A DNA stretch of 64,000 nt, taken from assembly GCA_947494435.1 (NCBI GenBank), contig CANLUY010000002.1, positions 1,302,001-1,366,000 of the forward strand, read 5' to 3'. The notes below the pieces were generated by a model. The model was not told the DNA's origin. It did no database searches and saw only the letters and a list, made by a program, of their open reading frames with translations. This document shows positions 5,977 through 13,249 of this stretch, in pieces; the stretch's first letter is position 1; every line of letters begins with the position of its first letter. This DNA is from an uncultured Litoreibacter sp. (lineage in GTDB: Bacteria > Pseudomonadota > Alphaproteobacteria > Rhodobacterales > Rhodobacteraceae). The translations under genes and the position numbers were made by a program.

Positions 5977-6462
5977 TTACTCCGCTGCAACTTGGCAACC
6001 ATGGGTCTTCCACATGGTCGCGTCTTTCAAAAAATTCCAACCGAACGCATCAGGGCTGTCGCCCCTTGTGTTCAGCATCTCAAGCCGTTCAAGCGCTTCT
6101 TCGAGTGTTGGTTTATGCCCTTCAGGCACCCACCACATGACAAAATGCATCTTGCCAAGCACTTCGAACCACTCCGCCCGTTTGTCGTAGAATTGCTTGT
6201 GAACAGTGCCCCAAACAAAAGTCTCTAGGCTGGCCGCATCTTCCCAAAGCGTCAGGTTCGGCACCAACAGTTCATCGCCATCTATCGCGTGGTCTGTCGC
6301 ACCGGGCCCGCCAGAGCCTTCAAGCATCCAAACAAAACCGGGCATCCGTTTGCCCAACCCATTAATGCGTTCAATGTTGTCTATGAATTCGGCAACACGC
6401 GGGTCCCCGACTGGGGCTACCAAGCGTCCAATATTCAACTCTGCAAGGTGATGCCCTTTCAT
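5977..6462 (-). CDS. DUF3291 domain protein
   Basis: A 161-residue soluble protein with no signal peptide. It opens HLAELNIGRL and carries NLTLWEDAASLETFVWG, MHFVMWWVPEGHKPTLEEA and WNFLKDATMW, the pattern I associate with DUF3291, a family resembling ferredoxin-like monooxygenase/EthD folds. The biochemical role is not known to me. Its start overlaps the stop of the preceding DUF5333-like gene by four bases (ATGA), so it is co-translated within the nuo operon. Confidence 0.8.
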   Translation of the reverse strand: MKGHHLAELNIGRLVAPVGDPRVAEFIDNIERINGLGKRMPGFVWMLEGSGGPGATDHAIDGDELLVPNLTLWEDAASLETFVWGTVHKQFYDKRAEWFEVLGKMHFVMWWVPEGHKPTLEEALERLEMLNTRGDSPDAFGWNFLKDATMWKTHGCQVAAE

Positions 6463-6857
6463 TGTGACACCTCCACCAACAGATTGCCGATATCCGTTTG
6501 CGCCTTGATCTCTTTCAAACCGGCCGCGCAGACTTGGGCTGAGTTGGCCCCTTCAAGGTTGTGTTTGTCCATAAACCGGCGCTGTAGCGCAAACAGCTGG
6601 TCAGAGAAATCTACCATTTCAGAAACGGGATCAGCGTCGTCAAACCCGTCCTCACTGAGCCACGCCATCACATTCTCTGACATTGACTGCGCGACCGCCG
6701 GGTTGATGCTAAGTTTTGGACAGTTCACCGCAATGGCCTGCGCCACATCCGTCGAAATGATTGCACCAACGAAATAATCCGGCGCAGGACGCAGCTCGGC
6801 CGAAGCCGATGTCGCAAGGAGCATTGTTGCTAAAACATATGCCGAAAACCGGATCAT
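6459..6857 (-). CDS. exported protein, DUF5333-like
   Basis: A 132-residue protein with a signal peptide (cleavage near ATSASA). The mature part is helical with two cysteines (VNCPKLS and QVCAAGL). From memory it resembles DUF5333, a small exported family restricted to Rhodobacterales, but I cannot confirm this without a profile search. It overlaps its neighbours on both sides by four bases, so it lies in a tightly coupled block between nuoF and nuoG. Function unknown. Confidence 0.65.
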   Translation of the reverse strand: MIRFSAYVLATMLLATSASAELRPAPDYFVGAIISTDVAQAIAVNCPKLSINPAVAQSMSENVMAWLSEDGFDDADPVSEMVDFSDQLFALQRRFMDKHNLEGANSAQVCAAGLKEIKAQTDIGNLLVEVSQ

Positions 6858-7195
6858 ATCGCGGTACAGGTCCCGTTAAAAACCAGCTTGTCGCCGTCTT
6901 GGGTGAAGGCCCAGTCGTTTGAGACCGCACTCATTTGCCAGTCAGCGTCAGAGCCACCAAAATTGAGGAGACAATACTTAGTGGCCTCAAACCGCACGCT
7001 TTCACGGACCTGATCAAGTCCCGAGCCTTTGTGGACGACTGCGACCGAAAACGCACGGTCTTCCCCTTTGCTCAGCTTCGCTTTGAAGGGCAACGTCGTT
7101 TGAGACTCTGCCCGTTTCGATGCGTTGCCAAGACCAAGCCTGCCACATGACGCGACACAGAGTGCAATGGATATGATCAACAGACCGCGAAGCAT
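6854..7195 (-). CDS. putative lipoprotein between nuoF and nuoG
   Basis: A 113-residue protein with a short signal peptide ending in a lipobox (VASC, Cys17). The mature part has two cysteines (KYCLLNFG and NGTCTAI at the C-terminus), the same plan as the lipoproteins at 7195 and 3557. Start and stop overlap the neighbouring frames by one and four bases. Its place between nuoF and nuoG suggests an envelope role tied to complex I expression or assembly, but that is only inference. Confidence 0.7.
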   Translation of the reverse strand: MLRGLLIISIALCVASCGRLGLGNASKRAESQTTLPFKAKLSKGEDRAFSVAVVHKGSGLDQVRESVRFEATKYCLLNFGGSDADWQMSAVSNDWAFTQDGDKLVFNGTCTAI

Positions 7196-7542
7196 CAGGA
7201 CTTTAATCCACTTCCATCAATCACTTCATCGCTAGTCAGAACACCAACGCAGAAGATATTTACAGTCAGAAGACCGTCCGCGCGTTTCCGTGTGTCGGGG
7301 ATACCACCCTCGCCTTCACGGCAGGCAATTTTCATGGCTTCAGCCACAGCGCGGCCCTCGTCTTCCAACGCAATTGCGCCACCGTCCTTGTAGCGCATCG
7401 TCACACGGGTTGTGTCAGCGGCGCGAACTGCTTGTGTAATTTCAATGGGTGGCCCTTTGGGTTCTTCCGGTTTCTCGGAAAAACCAGTTGGCTCGCAAGC
7501 CGTCAATGCCAGCAACGCTGCCGGGACAATCACAAAACGCAT
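7195..7542 (-). CDS. putative lipoprotein directly downstream of nuoF
   Basis: The start at 7542 (MRFVIVPAALLALTAC) gives a proper signal peptide with lipobox LTAC and sits four bases after the nuoF stop; the longer open frame upstream would destroy the signal. The product is about 115 residues, with two later cysteines (KIACREGE and NIFCVGV). Function unknown. It overlaps the next lipoprotein gene by a single base. Confidence 0.75.
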   Translation of the reverse strand: MRFVIVPAALLALTACEPTGFSEKPEEPKGPPIEITQAVRAADTTRVTMRYKDGGAIALEDEGRAVAEAMKIACREGEGGIPDTRKRADGLLTVNIFCVGVLTSDEVIDGSGLKS

Positions 7543-7546
7543 AGAC

Positions 7547-8845
7547 TTACTCCGCTGCGACGGCCGAAGGACCGCCTGTTCTTTTATGTGCAATCCGATC
7601 TTCGATTTCATCGCGGAAATTGCGGATCAAACCTTGGATAGGCCAGGCTGCCGCATCACCAAGCGCGCAGATCGTATGGCCTTCAACTTGCTTCGTGACA
7701 TCGAGCAGCATGTCGATCTCCGCGACATCGGCGTCGCCTTTAACCAAACGCTCCATCACCCGCATCATCCAGCCTGTACCTTCGCGACACGGGGTGCATT
7801 GGCCGCAACTTTCGTGCTTGTAGAATTTCGCAAGACGCCAAATTGCTTTGATGATGTCGGTATCTTTGTCCATCACGATGACCGCAGCGGTTCCCAGACC
7901 GGACTGCAAATCATTTCGTAGATAGTCAAAATCCATGATGGCGTCTTTCATGTTTTCGCCACGCACACAGGGCACAGAGGAGCCACCTGGGATAACCGCT
8001 TTTAGATTATCCCATCCACCACGAATACCACCGCAATGCTTCTCGATCAGCTCTTCAAAACTGATCGACATTGCTTCTTCAACAACACATGGGTTGTTCA
8101 CGTGACCTGAGATTGCAAACAGCTTGGTGCCGGTGTTGTTCGGGCGCCCGAAAGAGCTGAACCACTCCCCACCGCGCCGCAGGATCGTTGGAACGACGGC
8201 GATGGATTCCACATTGTTCACTGTTGTCGGACAGCCATACAGCCCAGCGCCAGCTGGAAACGGAGGTTTCATCCGGGGCATTCCCTTTTTGCCTTCGAGG
8301 CTTTCAAGGAGTGCCGTTTCCTCACCGCAGATATACGCACCAGCGCCGTGGTGCAGGTAAATATCAAAATCCCAGCCGGATTTTGCGGCATTCGGACCAA
8401 CGAGGCCCGCGTCGTAGCATTCGTCAATGGCGGCCTGCAGGGCTTCCTTTTCGCGGATATACTCACCGCGAATGTAAATGTAGCAAGCGTTGGCATTCAT
8501 GGCGAAAGAGGCGATCAGGCACCCCTCGATCAGCGTGTGAGGGTCATGACGCATGATCTCACGGTCTTTGCAGGTGCCCGGCTCGGATTCGTCCGCATTG
8601 ACGACCAAATAAGATGGACGGCCATCGCTCTCCTTCGGCATGAAAGACCATTTCAGGCCAGTCGGAAAACCAGCCCCACCGCGACCACGCAGACCGGAAG
8701 CTTTCATCTCTTCGATAATTTTGTCGCGACCGCGCTTAATGATTTTAGCTGTGCCATCCCAATGCCCGCGCGCTTTCGCGCCCTTCAGAGTGCGATCATG
8801 CATCCCGTAGAGATTGGTAAAGATCCGGTCTTTATCTGCGAGCAT
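7547..8845 (-). CDS. nuoF: NADH-quinone oxidoreductase subunit F
   Basis: A 432-residue flavoprotein subunit that takes the hydride from NADH onto FMN. The glycine-rich FMN/NADH region ([13 protein letters not shown]), the [14 protein letters not shown] segment and the N3 [4Fe-4S] ligands (CGQCTPC, then the Cys of TICALGD) are all present. The frame is open further upstream, but that extension overlaps the DUF5337-like gene; the start at 8845 ([14 protein letters not shown]) matches the family N-terminus. Confidence 0.98.
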
Positions 8846-8862
8846 CCTGTCTCGTCCCTTAG

Positions 8863-9081
8863 CTAGTTCTGGCGGGATCGCCAGATCAAAAATGCGCGTA
8901 TCAGCGCCCATCCAAATACGGCCAACGCCGCAAGATCGAAAAACGCCATGGCCCTGTTGGACCAGTTGAGTTGCGCTCCGATCAACTGGACCCCGATATA
9001 AGCGATGGCTGCGCCTGCGATCAGCAGCGCAAGCCGCCGCCCGATGCCTGCAAACCCACTTTGATTACCGGAGTCCCGCAT
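8863..9081 (-). CDS. small two-helix membrane protein, DUF5337-like
   Basis: A 72-residue protein with two transmembrane helices (about 14-33 and 43-63), a short basic C-terminus (IWRSRQN) and little else. It resembles DUF5337, a small Rhodobacterales membrane family that I recall from nuo operons; a profile search would settle this. It lies 17 bases before the chosen nuoF start. A complex I accessory or assembly factor is possible but unproven. Confidence 0.7.
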
Positions 9082-9106
9082 AGTTTATGTTTTCCTCGAC
9101 GTCAGC

Positions 9107-9934
9107 TTAGTAAACATCGCCCTTTTTCACGCGGTTCGAGAATTCTGTCGCGCCGCCTTTGGCGAGGGTTTTGCATTGCTTGACCCAATCATCGCGCTCG
9201 ATACGACCTTTGAACTTGAGGCGCTCATCCACCCAAGCGATCTCTTTCTTGCGCCAACCAGCGATCTGGTCAAAGTGATAAAACCCAAGTTCATTTAGGG
9301 TTTTCTCAAGACCTGGACCTACGCCTTTGATCTGCTTGAGATCATCCGCCCCACCATCGCGTGCTTTGCTCAGCAATGGGGGTTGGCCATCTTTTGCAAC
9401 CGGAGCTGCCTTCGCTTTCACAGCGGACTTTGCTGCTGGTTTCTTAGCCGCCGGTTTTTTATCAGCTGCCTTCTTTGCTGCTGGTTTTTTCGCAGCAGGC
9501 TTGTCTTCGGCTTCGTACTTCCACTCACCCTTTTTCTCGGACAGCTCTGCTTCACCTGCCAAAAATTTAGACGGTTGCACCGATGCACTTGTAGACGCCG
9601 CTGCAGTTGTTGTTGCAGTCGCTGTATTTGCCGCGGCGGCTGGTGTTGAAGATGTTGTGGGCGCGGCGGCTTTTGGCTTCGCATCAGCCGCTGTCGGGGC
9701 GGACCCGGGACCAACACCTGCGGAACCAGGCTCAACCAAGCCAGTGCTGTTGCTGCAAAAGACTATCGGAAACACGACCGCGCCAACCGCTGCAATAACG
9801 CCGCCAAGCATCAATGAGGAAAGAACACTCCAATCGATGACAAGCCACAAAAGCAGGAAGGCAATCAAGCCAATTGCACCCCCAATGATCATGCACCACA
9901 TTGCGCATGACGTTTTTGACCCAGCATGGTTCAT
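9107..9934 (-). CDS. membrane-anchored protein with Lys/Ala-rich linker and NuoE-type C-terminal domain
   Basis: A 275-residue protein in three parts. Residues about 10-60 form two membrane helices. A long Ala/Lys/Pro/Thr-rich low-complexity linker follows, with repeated AAKKPAAKK-like units. The last 80 residues or so form a helix-hairpin-helix-like domain (IKGVGPGLEKTLNELG, then DDWVKQCKTLAKGG). That final domain is nearly the same as the C-terminal tail of NuoE encoded immediately upstream. Function unknown; a tether or supernumerary subunit of complex I is a reasonable hypothesis. Confidence 0.8.
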   Translation of the reverse strand: MNHAGSKTSCAMWCMIIGGAIGLIAFLLLWLVIDWSVLSSLMLGGVIAAVGAVVFPIVFCSNSTGLVEPGSAGVGPGSAPTAADAKPKAAAPTTSSTPAAAANTATATTTAAASTSASVQPSKFLAGEAELSEKKGEWKYEAEDKPAAKKPAAKKAADKKPAAKKPAAKSAVKAKAAPVAKDGQPPLLSKARDGGADDLKQIKGVGPGLEKTLNELGFYHFDQIAGWRKKEIAWVDERLKFKGRIERDDWVKQCKTLAKGGATEFSNRVKKGDVY

Positions 9935-9965
9935 AGTAATCCTCCCTATCCGCTAGTTCTTAGCA

Positions 9966-11105
9966 TTAGTAGACGCCGCCTTTTTTGACGCGGCTTGAAA
10001 ATTCCGTGCTGCCCCCTTTGGCAAGGGTTTTAGCTTGCTTTACCCAATCATCGCGTGACACGCGGCCCTTAAATCCTTCGAGGTTTTCATCAACCCATGC
10101 CACTTCGGCTTTGCGCCATCCGGCCACTTGGTCGAAGTGATACACCCCCAGCTTATTGAGCAGTTTTTCGAGTGCGGGCCCGACACCTTTGATCATTTTC
10201 AAGTCATCCGCCCCACCCGCGCGCGCCTTTTTTAGCATCTCCGGCTTGCCATCTTTCGCAACTGGTTTGGCAGCGGTTTTTGCGGGCGCTGGTTTCGACG
10301 CGGGTTTCGTTTTCGGTTTCGCGGTCGATTTTGCCTTCGTCTTTGCGGCACCAGTCCGCTCGACCGGGGCTTTCGGCTTTGGCCCAGACGTCGGCGCAGC
10401 CTGCCCCCACGGGGCAAGCAGTGGGACCTCAGTGCCGTCAATCCGTTTAACAGTATCTCCGATATCGGAAGCAAGCTGAACAGATGCGTTATATTGGGTG
10501 TTGCCACTGTCGTAATCTGTCAGTGATGTCAGGCCCTTTAATGGTTCAGATGCATATCTTCCGTTTTGCGGCCCCGGCGTCGGCACCTCCCCTTTCTCGA
10601 GCATGTCGATCAGGTCGGCCACACGTTTTGCTGTCAAATCCTCGTAGTAGTCTTTGCCGATCTGAGCCATGGGCGCGTTTGTACAGGCCCCCAAACACTC
10701 TACTTCTTCCCAGCTAAATTTGCCGTCAGCGGAAAGCTGATGCGGTTTCGGTGCAATCTTACGTTTGCACACCTCAATAAGATCTTCCGCGCCGCAAATC
10801 ATACAGGACGTTGTCCCGCATATCTGGATATGCGCAACAGAACCAACGGGTTGAAGCTGAAACATAAAGTAGAAGGAGGCGACTTCCAGCGCTCGGATAT
10901 AGTCCATACCCAGCATATCCGCGATGCCTTCGATAGCCGGACGGGTCAACCACCCCTCCTGTTCTTGCGCGCGCCATAGCAAAGGAATAATAGCCGAGGC
11001 CTGACGTCCCTCAGGATACTTCGTCACTTGTGCTTCAGCCCACACCTGATTGTCAGGTGTAAAGGCAAAACTGTCAGGTTGCTCTTTGTGAAGGCGGCGT
11101 AGCAT
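9966..11105 (-). CDS. nuoE: NADH-quinone oxidoreductase subunit E with C-terminal HhH-like extension
   Basis: The first 165 residues or so are a standard NuoE thioredoxin-like [2Fe-2S] protein with ligands C96, C101, C137 and C141 (cluster N1a). Together with NuoF it forms the NADH-oxidising unit. The protein then continues for about 200 more residues: a Lys/Ala/Pro-rich linker (about 235-290) and an 80-residue helix-hairpin-helix-like domain ([16 protein letters not shown]). Ordinary NuoE is roughly 160-240 residues, so this is an extended form. The same end domain recurs in the next gene. Confidence 0.95.
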
Positions 11106-12328
11106 TAGCGGTCAATCTCTCCGAATACGACATCCATTGTGCCGATAATTGCTGCAACATCAGCCAGCTGGTGGCCTTTGCACATGTAGTCCATTGCTTG
11201 CAGGTGCAGGAATCCCGGTGCGCGGATTTTGCTGCGATAGGGTTTGTTAGTACCGTCAGCAACAAGGTAGACACCGAACTCGCCCTTGGGCGCTTCAACA
11301 GCCGCATAGACTTCGCCTTCCGGCACGTGAAACCCTTCGGTATAAAGCTTGAAGTGATGGATCAATGCTTCCATCGAGGTCTTCATCTCGCCACGCGCAG
11401 GCGGGGTCATCTTTCCGCGCGCCATCACATCACCCTGCCCCTCTGGAGCGCGCAATTTCTCGATAGCTTGGCGGATGATCAGCAGGGACTGACGCATTTC
11501 TTCCATGCGGCACAGATAGCGGTCAAAGCAGTCGCCGTTTTTGCCAACAGGAATATCGAACTCGAACTCGTTGTAGCATTCATAGGGCTGCGCGCGCCGC
11601 AGGTCCCAGGCAAGGCCAGAGCCGCGGACCATTACGCCGGAAAAACCGTAGTCCAGAATATCCTGCTCCGACACAATACCAATATCGGCGTTACGCTGTT
11701 TGAAGATACGGTTGTCAGACAAAAGACCGTCGATATCAGCCAGAACATTCGGGAAGGTCGTCGTCCATTCCTCGATATCGTTCAGCAGATCATCTGGCAG
11801 GTCTTGATGCACGCCACCGGGCCGGAAATAAGCTGCGTGCAGCCGTGCCCCGCAGGCGCGCTCGTAAAAGCACATCAGTTTTTCGCGTTCTTCAAAGCCC
11901 CAAAGCGGCGGGGTTAAGGCACCCACATCCATCGCTTGTGTCGTGACGTTCAAAAGGTGGTTCAAGACACGGCCAATTTCCGAGTAAAGAACACGGATCA
12001 AAGAAGCTCGGCGCGGAATTTCAGTGCCAGTCAGCTTTTCAATCGCCAAGCACCAAGCATGCTCTTGATTCATCGGCGCGACATAATCGAGGCGGTCGAA
12101 ATACGGAAGGTTTTGCAGATATGTCCTGCTCTCCATCAGCTTTTCGGTCCCACGATGCAGCAGCCCGATATGCGGATCGCAACGCTCCACGATCTCCCCA
12201 TCCAACTCCAGCACGAGGCGCAGCACGCCGTGGGCCGCGGGGTGCTGCGGGCCGAAGTTGATATTGAAGTTACGGATCTTCTGCTCGCCCGTCAGCGTGT
12301 CGTCAAATTTAGAGCCGTCCATAGCCAT
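11105..12328 (-). CDS. nuoD: NADH-quinone oxidoreductase subunit D
   Basis: A 407-residue quinone-site subunit related to the large subunit of NiFe hydrogenases. [21 protein letters not shown] near the N-terminus (quinone-site His) and the C-terminal VVFGEIDR are family hallmarks. The ATG at 12328 is favoured by a GAGGG sequence eight bases upstream. Unlike the usual order, it is separated from nuoC by a sulfotransferase-like gene. Its last base is shared with the nuoE start. Confidence 0.98.
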
Positions 12329-12331
12329 GGC

Positions 12332-13249
12332 TTACACCCTCATCTCGCCTGCCGGAGCAGACACTTTGTTTTCGATCCAACGCTGAGGCAAATCACCCTC
12401 CATAAAGCGTTCTACGAATTCATATTGCCCTTGCAACTCGCGTTGCGCCTTCGCGCGGTCGGAGGGTGCCATATCGATCCGGTCACTCACATTGCTTTCA
12501 TGCGAAAAGTCAGCCGGATGTTGGTTGATCCCCAGAAATGCACATATTTGCGCGATAGTCTTGTTGGTAAAAAGTCGCTCGTAATAGCCCACGAACAAAC
12601 TTTCACGCGGAATAGCATTAGAGATACGCGTGAGCATCGATTTGTAATCACTGCGCAATATCAACGCCGTTTCGACCCCGCCGAACCATCTTGCAAAAAG
12701 GCCTCGCGCAATATCTGACACCTCAGAGGCTGAGGCGACACCACCGCGTTTGTCTGCTTTGATACGCGCAGCCTGGCAGATGTTCGACCATAAGCGGTCA
12801 ACTGGGTCGCGCAGCATGAAAACGAACTTTACGCGTTCCGAGAGGCCAGACATCATCCGCAAACGATCTTCGCTCAACAGCGAATAGGCCGGCGTGATAT
12901 CGCCATAAACGCGGCCATTCCGGCCGTCTTGCAGGAACCTCAGATAGGCTTCTGTATTCTCCTCACCCGACACAAGATGACGCAAGCCTTCGATGTCTTG
13001 CCGCCAAACACCGATTGCGGCTTTGCGATCACCGATGGCTGCGGCGTGCCGGCGCTCGGCACGCTTTGCGATCCCGTCAAGACGTTTGATCTGACGGCGG
13101 CGTCCACCGTAATCCATTGTCGAAAAGTAATGCAGTTCCTTAACACGCGGCAGTGCGCATTCCGGATGGCCCGCCAAATAGCGGTAAAGCCACGTACTAC
13201 CCGCACGCGTGGCCCCAAGTCCGAACATCAAGGTGGCTGCCTCACTCAT
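12332..13249 (-). CDS. sulfotransferase-family protein between nuoC and nuoD
   Basis: A 305-residue soluble protein. The N-terminal LGATRAGSTWLYRYLAGHP is a 5'-phosphosulfate-binding loop for PAPS, and KFVFMLRDPVDRLWSN carries the RDPxxRxxS 3'-phosphate motif. The family moves sulfate from PAPS to hydroxyl or amino groups; the substrate here cannot be told. It sits three bases from nuoC and four from nuoD, so it is co-transcribed with complex I, an odd place for such an enzyme. No export signal is visible. Confidence 0.85.
   Translation of the reverse strand: MSEAATLMFGLGATRAGSTWLYRYLAGHPECALPRVKELHYFSTMDYGGRRRQIKRLDGIAKRAERRHAAAIGDRKAAIGVWRQDIEGLRHLVSGEENTEAYLRFLQDGRNGRVYGDITPAYSLLSEDRLRMMSGLSERVKFVFMLRDPVDRLWSNICQAARIKADKRGGVASASEVSDIARGLFARWFGGVETALILRSDYKSMLTRISNAIPRESLFVGYYERLFTNKTIAQICAFLGINQHPADFSHESNVSDRIDMAPSDRAKAQRELQGQYEFVERFMEGDLPQRWIENKVSAPAGEMRV

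Follow-up and report, generated by a model that had tools for sequence, protein, structure and literature searches.

A predicted protein-O homologue encoded after nuoE carries a C-terminal domain that changes in concert with that of NuoE

Two neighbouring genes in a nuo operon of an uncultured Litoreibacter sp. end in nearly the same domain, which raises the question of what a complex I subunit and a membrane protein might share it for. The stretch analysed (the window) comprises 64,000 nucleotides of contig CANLUY010000002.1, and its minus strand reads nuoD (11105–12328), nuoE (9966..11105), a protein-O gene (9107..9934), a DUF5337 gene (8863–9081) and nuoF (7547–8911; PF01512 and PF10589), the next core gene of the operon. 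NuoE (379 aa) joins a thioredoxin-like 2Fe-2S core (PF01257, E = 3.2e-51) to a C-terminal extension (NF009040, 604.2 bits). The DUF5337 product, between protein-O and nuoF, is a small two-helix membrane protein of 72 aa (PF17272, E = 5.3e-20); its gene overlaps the start of nuoF, and comparable small ORFs precede nuoF in a number of survey genomes. A sulfotransferase-like gene (12332–13249) lies within the operon immediately upstream of nuoD, and three small genes occupy 6459–7611, from nuoF to a DUF3291 gene near nuoG (one of them DUF5333, the remaining pair without a Pfam match at E ≤ 0.01). Promoter and terminator scans of 8700–11200 gave counts close to the shuffled means.

An earlier note on this DNA had drawn attention to the reading frames 9107–9934(−) (275 aa) and 9966–11105(−) (379 aa), both of which are present as it described, and to a near-identical C-terminal domain in the two products. 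The domains (HhH-like; 9107..9373, 88 aa plus stop, and 9966..10235, 89 aa plus stop, both on the minus strand) confirm this likeness: aligning the final 88 residues of the shorter protein with the final 89 of NuoE gives 70 identities over 89 columns, and the local score of 450 far exceeds the highest of 200 shuffles (72), by which chance similarity was rejected. The two copies differ at codon positions 1, 2 and 3 in 14, 12 and 51 of 88 codons, and protein identity is 0.80 where that of fourfold sites is 0.375; the domain is therefore under selection, its DNA differing mainly at synonymous sites as had been proposed, and the copies are not recent duplicates. Among 64 sequences, 21 columns of the domain are invariant.

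By its sequence, the 9107 gene encodes a homologue of protein-O and not a new kind of protein. A phmmer search against solved structures retrieved 8yy9 chain O (‘Reaction center protein O chain’, 239 aa) with a whole-sequence E of 1.2e-41, the match falling in two stretches of the window protein, residues 8–143 (hairpin, linker and motif) and 183–275 (domain). The AlphaFold2 helices at residues 6–31 and 37–63 bear out the two N-terminal membrane helices of the earlier note and form a predicted transmembrane hairpin (residues 6–63; 9746..9919, minus strand) with Cys10, Cys14 and Cys60; a disordered Ala/Thr/Pro linker with the short linear motif VQPSKFLAGEAELSEKKGEWKYEAE (residues 119–143; 9506..9580, minus strand), a Lys/Ala linker and the C-terminal domain follow. 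This motif also occurs in Dinoroseobacter shibae protein-O and in some NuoE tails. In the full-length AlphaFold2 model, hairpin and domain are connected by low-confidence linkers. Taking homology, the hairpin with a cysteine near both ends and the nuoE/nuoF location together, we infer from sequence and location that the window protein is probably an orthologue of D. shibae protein-O. Excerpts from the published report on the latter (PMC12079452) describe a subunit of the RC-LH1 photocomplex, found by cryo-EM and mass spectrometry, of which only Met8–Cys59 is visible, with a Cys10–Cys59 disulfide on the cytoplasmic side. A NuoE-like C-terminal domain and a gene located between nuoE and nuoF are also reported there; in its main points, what the earlier note saw has thus been published for a probable orthologue. 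Added here are that protein-O is common in non-phototrophs too and that its domain (hereafter the O domain) and the NuoE domain change together.

The AlphaFold2 model of the domain is confident (mean pLDDT 92.0) and all-helical. Foldseek gave a best E of 0.24, and Pfam Cdd1 scored 15.1 and 15 bits, below its cut-off of 25.5. The nearest structures were RadA N-terminal domains (Z up to 7.3; r.m.s.d. 2.5, 61 aligned) and NusA AR2 (Z of 6.5), values below 8, at which the likeness to RadA and NusA may reflect just a common arrangement. The domain is not restricted to nuo loci. It was found at E ≤ 1e-10 in 10 of 115 genomes of the class, window included, where carriers named by eye were NuoE, protein-O, L21, an S2-like protein (in G218), single-helix coiled-coil membrane proteins and others; partial NCBIfam matches below cut-offs were to L21, S2 and phasin PhaH. 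The host's own ribosomal protein L21 (L003:1123-1824) has a domain of the same type after a Lys/Ala linker, and of 30 L21 loci examined, 25 encode the domain. Such carriers, the HhH-like fold, the Lys/Ala linkers and the likeness to RadA/Rad51 N-terminal and NusA AR2 domains would suit a domain that binds nucleic acid or ribosomes and so anchors ribosomes, RNA or the nucleoid at complex I and RC-LH1. We consider this quite improbable: besides the low Z scores, the basic Lys/Ala linker of the earlier note, although true of this genome, does not extend to the whole family, several relatives having acidic or Pro/Ala-rich linkers instead, and NusA AR2 binds a protein in the matched entry 6ib8 (by its title).

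We then surveyed the family with 149 genomes, each from a different genus. Of these, 143 had a NuoE core and 135 the domain (E ≤ 1e-5); six had no NuoE match, and G022 and G102, with NuoE at a contig end, were left out, which leaves 141 genomes (140 and the window) whose sequence following nuoE was read. NuoE carries the domain in 114 of the 141 and is followed by protein-O (hairpin and domain) in 89. Both occur together in 78, the NuoE domain only in 36, the O domain only in 11 and neither in 16. An extra domain-bearing gene lies between protein-O and nuoF in 11 of the 141 (for example, L090, L051 and L128); most of these genes lack a transmembrane hairpin, several are phasin-like by eye, and the one that was checked had no Pfam match.

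Is protein-O, then, simply a photosynthesis protein? The host genome has pufL and pufM, on a 49.8-kb contig. Between pufM and the next large ORF, no pufC was found, the sole ORF there being one of 80 aa (L177:5884-6126) with a single transmembrane helix, which we take by eye, from a motif, to be PufX-like. Across the survey, PF00124 (pufL/pufM) was found in 61 of 149 genomes, and protein-O with its domain in 43 of the 57 genera with puf and 46 of the 84 without it (43:12 versus 46:37 over the 138 readable intervals, three unreadable ones having been dropped from all protein-O tests; p = 0.0067 with shared ancestry kept in). Counting domain-less hairpins as well gave 44:11 versus 56:27 (p = 0.12), and tree-based pairs yielded three supported pairs, a small number. 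A subunit that shapes RC-LH1 assembly or quinone exchange, its place in the nuo operon being incidental, would agree with this excess in puf+ genera, with the D. shibae structure (excerpts of PMC12079452) and with 9wqv. But protein-O stands after nuoE, at the same place, in 46 of the 84 genera that lack pufLM, so it is more than a photosynthesis protein, and a dedicated role in photosynthesis is unlikely; of the 55 puf+ genera whose intervals could be read, 12 do not have it there, and the cysteine pair, by a simple position rule, is commoner in the puf− proteins (36 of 46) than in the puf+ ones (22 of 43; p = 0.008). Taken as the whole explanation, photosynthesis alone is very improbable and is disfavoured.

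The earlier note had instead suggested a tether or supernumerary subunit of complex I. In its direct form, the NuoE tail would bind the O domain, so that the 9107 product would serve complex I as a membrane-anchored supernumerary subunit or, in phototrophs, would bridge complex I and RC-LH1. The genes are adjacent and the domains change in concert, and the O domain is likelier where NuoE has its own (78 of 111 versus 11 of 27; Fisher p = 0.0065 over 138 genera, with shared ancestry kept in). NuoE faces the cytoplasm. The O domain lies on the same side by the published structure (excerpts of PMC12079452). A pairs test on the NuoE tree, by comparison, gave no support from its four supported pairs, a small number. 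Of 23 genomes with a single domain match (E ≤ 1e-5, a count that may miss more divergent second copies), 11 have it in NuoE, six in protein-O and one in neither (five were not read); these 11 NuoE-only and six O-only genomes speak against an obligate tether and weaken the case for a strict clasp between the two proteins. The excerpted text on the Paracoccus complex I structure names, beside the core, just NDUFS4, NDUFS6, NDUFA12 and PIMT and no protein-O-like subunit (PMC11522691), and in an earlier mass spectrometry study, again in excerpts, the further proteins mentioned were mostly judged contaminants (PMC8115037). The Paracoccus NuoE itself, however, has 239 aa and no domain, which limits the weight of Paracoccus as a test case. 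No survey genome was near enough to count as Paracoccus (the best score was that of G10, with 79.4% identity and a protein-O, and the top identity that of G51, with 80.8% and none), and our literature search found no paper on a NuoE extension in Paracoccus. The only physical evidence that we found for the protein-O family, in excerpts of PMC12079452 and in 9wqv, places it in the photosynthetic reaction-centre complex and not in complex I. We consider a direct tether unlikely.

We further compared the NuoE (E) and protein-O (O) domains between and within genomes, with the L21 (R) domain as a control. Across the 78 genomes with both E and O, mean identity is 0.643 for E–E, 0.648 for O–O and 0.636 for E–O between genomes. 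A single old duplication would make the NuoE copies closer to each other than to the protein-O copies, which is hardly so (0.643 versus 0.636). Within a genome, E–O identity rises to 0.676, a value reached in none of 2,000 permutations. The 20 genomes with all three domains gave 0.650 (E–E), 0.674 (O–O), 0.646 (E–O), 0.660 (R–R), 0.518 (E–R) and 0.505 (O–R). The within-genome excess is positive for E–O in 57 of 79 genomes (the 78 and G170, which was added after being seen; Wilcoxon p = 1.2e-6); for E–R and O–R it is positive in 11 of 22 and 11 of 21, so genome composition does not account for the E–O likeness. Where synonymous sites are saturated, the excess stays (0.676, n = 47, versus 0.638; p = 0.0011, the pairs not being independent). 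The phylogeny of both copies, which the earlier note had proposed as a check, did not separate them into two clades: in an approximately unbiased (AU) test, run with a quick tree without a mixture model on 40 genomes drawn at random from the 75 that were usable (eight L21 rows; long-branch genomes G37, G47 and G48 and one L21 row dropped beforehand), the NuoE copies as a single clade were rejected (p = 0.00186), and an L21 clade was not (p = 0.808). One old duplication followed by separate evolution of the two domains is thereby rejected for this sample.

The mixing of E and O domains is partial and the within-genome effect modest (0.04). A genome's own protein-O is the best or tied best match of its NuoE domain in just 10 of 78 cases, and on a tree of 181 rows, poorly resolved, E and O labels are clustered (34–36 changes, of which starred branches force 3–4, against a shuffled mean near 59; none of 500 shuffles as low). 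In G103, a recent exchange shows in NuoE and protein-O coding stretches that are nearly identical and agree at 36 of 36 fourfold sites; G170 has an L21-subtype domain on both proteins, with identities of 0.66 and 0.71 to L21, 0.55–0.58 to others and 0.88 to each other.

Tails may also have been exchanged. In 11 genomes, a hairpin protein without the domain follows nuoE (hand-picked from 15 candidate genomes; G29, G54, G57 and G137 were judged not to be protein-O). Seven of the 11 (G5, G31, G38, G56, G73, G78 and G110) end at or just past the motif VKPSxxLPGxxELAxRKGxWxY, a strict pattern of which matches 21 of 89 protein-O sequences, those of the window and G35 included, and 8 of 141 NuoE ORFs. 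Five of these eight (G5, G31, G38, G78 and G110) belong to genomes with a domain-less hairpin. The hairpin region of the G35 protein agrees with the D. shibae chain.

Such data invite an explanation without any functional link, in which tandem duplication gave neighbours one tail and conversion between direct repeats keeps the tails alike and sometimes deletes or swaps them. The near-identical DNA in G103, the occurrence of motif and domain on either protein, the hand-picked domain-less hairpins and the frequent changes of state along the NuoE tree (36 for the O domain and 21 for the NuoE domain) all fit. The window pair and 46 others, by contrast, have fourfold identity below 0.5 and yet a conserved protein, and the strong conservation of the domain, with its invariant columns, also argues against this account, which we regard as rather doubtful. 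Exchange and selection seem both to act on the E and O domains. What stands of the earlier reading is that the same module occurs in adjacent genes on one strand, one product being membrane-anchored, and that the two copies are selected and evolve together; the tether or supernumerary subunit, as put there, lacks support.

The reading that we favour, tentatively and at somewhat less than even confidence, is that the protein-O hairpin sits in or beside a quinone-handling complex and that the NuoE and O domains dock on one common cytoplasmic partner, co-recruiting their complexes. The hairpin would lie in the membrane, within or beside RC-LH1 in the one published phototroph and another partner in relatives without a reaction centre. 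Because the hairpin ends on the cytoplasmic side in the D. shibae structure (excerpts of PMC12079452), the O domain would hang in the cytoplasm on its flexible linker, on the side of NuoE. The two domains would be kept alike by concerted change, that is, tract exchange between neighbouring copies plus selection, and this concerted change suggests that they most likely offer one docking surface to a single shared partner. A third partner would also fit the O-only and NuoE-only genomes better than a mutual clasp. Complex I and the protein-O complexes would thus be gathered at one place with no rigid bridge; the common partner, the co-recruitment and any role with complex I are what we infer here, whereas homology, location, distribution, concerted change and the place of the D. 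shibae hairpin rest on data given here or published. Against shared docking, gene conversion by itself could make neighbours alike, as in G103; the higher frequency of protein-O with its domain in phototrophs (43 of 55 versus 46 of 83; p = 0.007) could mean a mainly photosynthetic role; and the presence of the domain in ribosomal and other proteins means that its ligand need not concern electron transport.

A bolder reading, which we consider unlikely, is that the tails of NuoE have co-evolved with protein-O into a docking system specific to this lineage, one that would bring complex I together with further membrane complexes that handle quinones. If so, NADH oxidation (or reverse electron flow) would be physically coupled to the reaction centre in aerobic anoxygenic phototrophs, and complex I of non-phototrophs to another partner. 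The nuo location, the presence without a reaction centre and the co-evolution with NuoE tails make it unlikely that photosynthesis is protein-O's only business; protein-O may link the respiratory and photosynthetic machineries or have a more general role. With these data, the vague notion that one shared module brings respiratory and photosynthetic complexes together becomes directly testable in a marine bacterium that can be cultured.

Among known systems, NuoE with a C-terminal extension (NCBIfam NF009040, PRK12373) includes the window NuoE as an ordinary member (604.2 bits against a cut-off of 514), with no difference seen. L21 with a C-terminal HhH-like domain (NCBIfam NF008915, PRK12278) has the same type of domain as NuoE and protein-O, but its copies group by themselves, and within a genome they bear no special likeness to either, unlike the NuoE–O pair; a literature search for NuoE together with L21 and helix-hairpin-helix found no paper. 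Chain a of PDB 9wqv (229 aa), deposited as ‘NADH:ubiquinone oxidoreductase 41 kd complex i subunit’ in an entry that also holds a reaction-centre L chain (chain L) and for which we found no paper, has the C-terminal domain in common with the window protein (whole-sequence E = 2.5e-28), whereas its N-terminal half aligns weakly (5.9 bits). In D. shibae, the RC-LH1 ring is closed and the complex includes a cytochrome subunit with three hemes (excerpts of PMC12079452), whereas the host has no pufC beside pufM; membership of RC-LH1 is established by structure for D. shibae protein-O and is putative for the window protein. With that protein (PDB 8yy9, 8yz2, 9jpb and 9km0; excerpts of PMC12079452), the window protein shares the Cys-ended transmembrane hairpin, the motif, the NuoE-like domain and the site between nuoE and nuoF.
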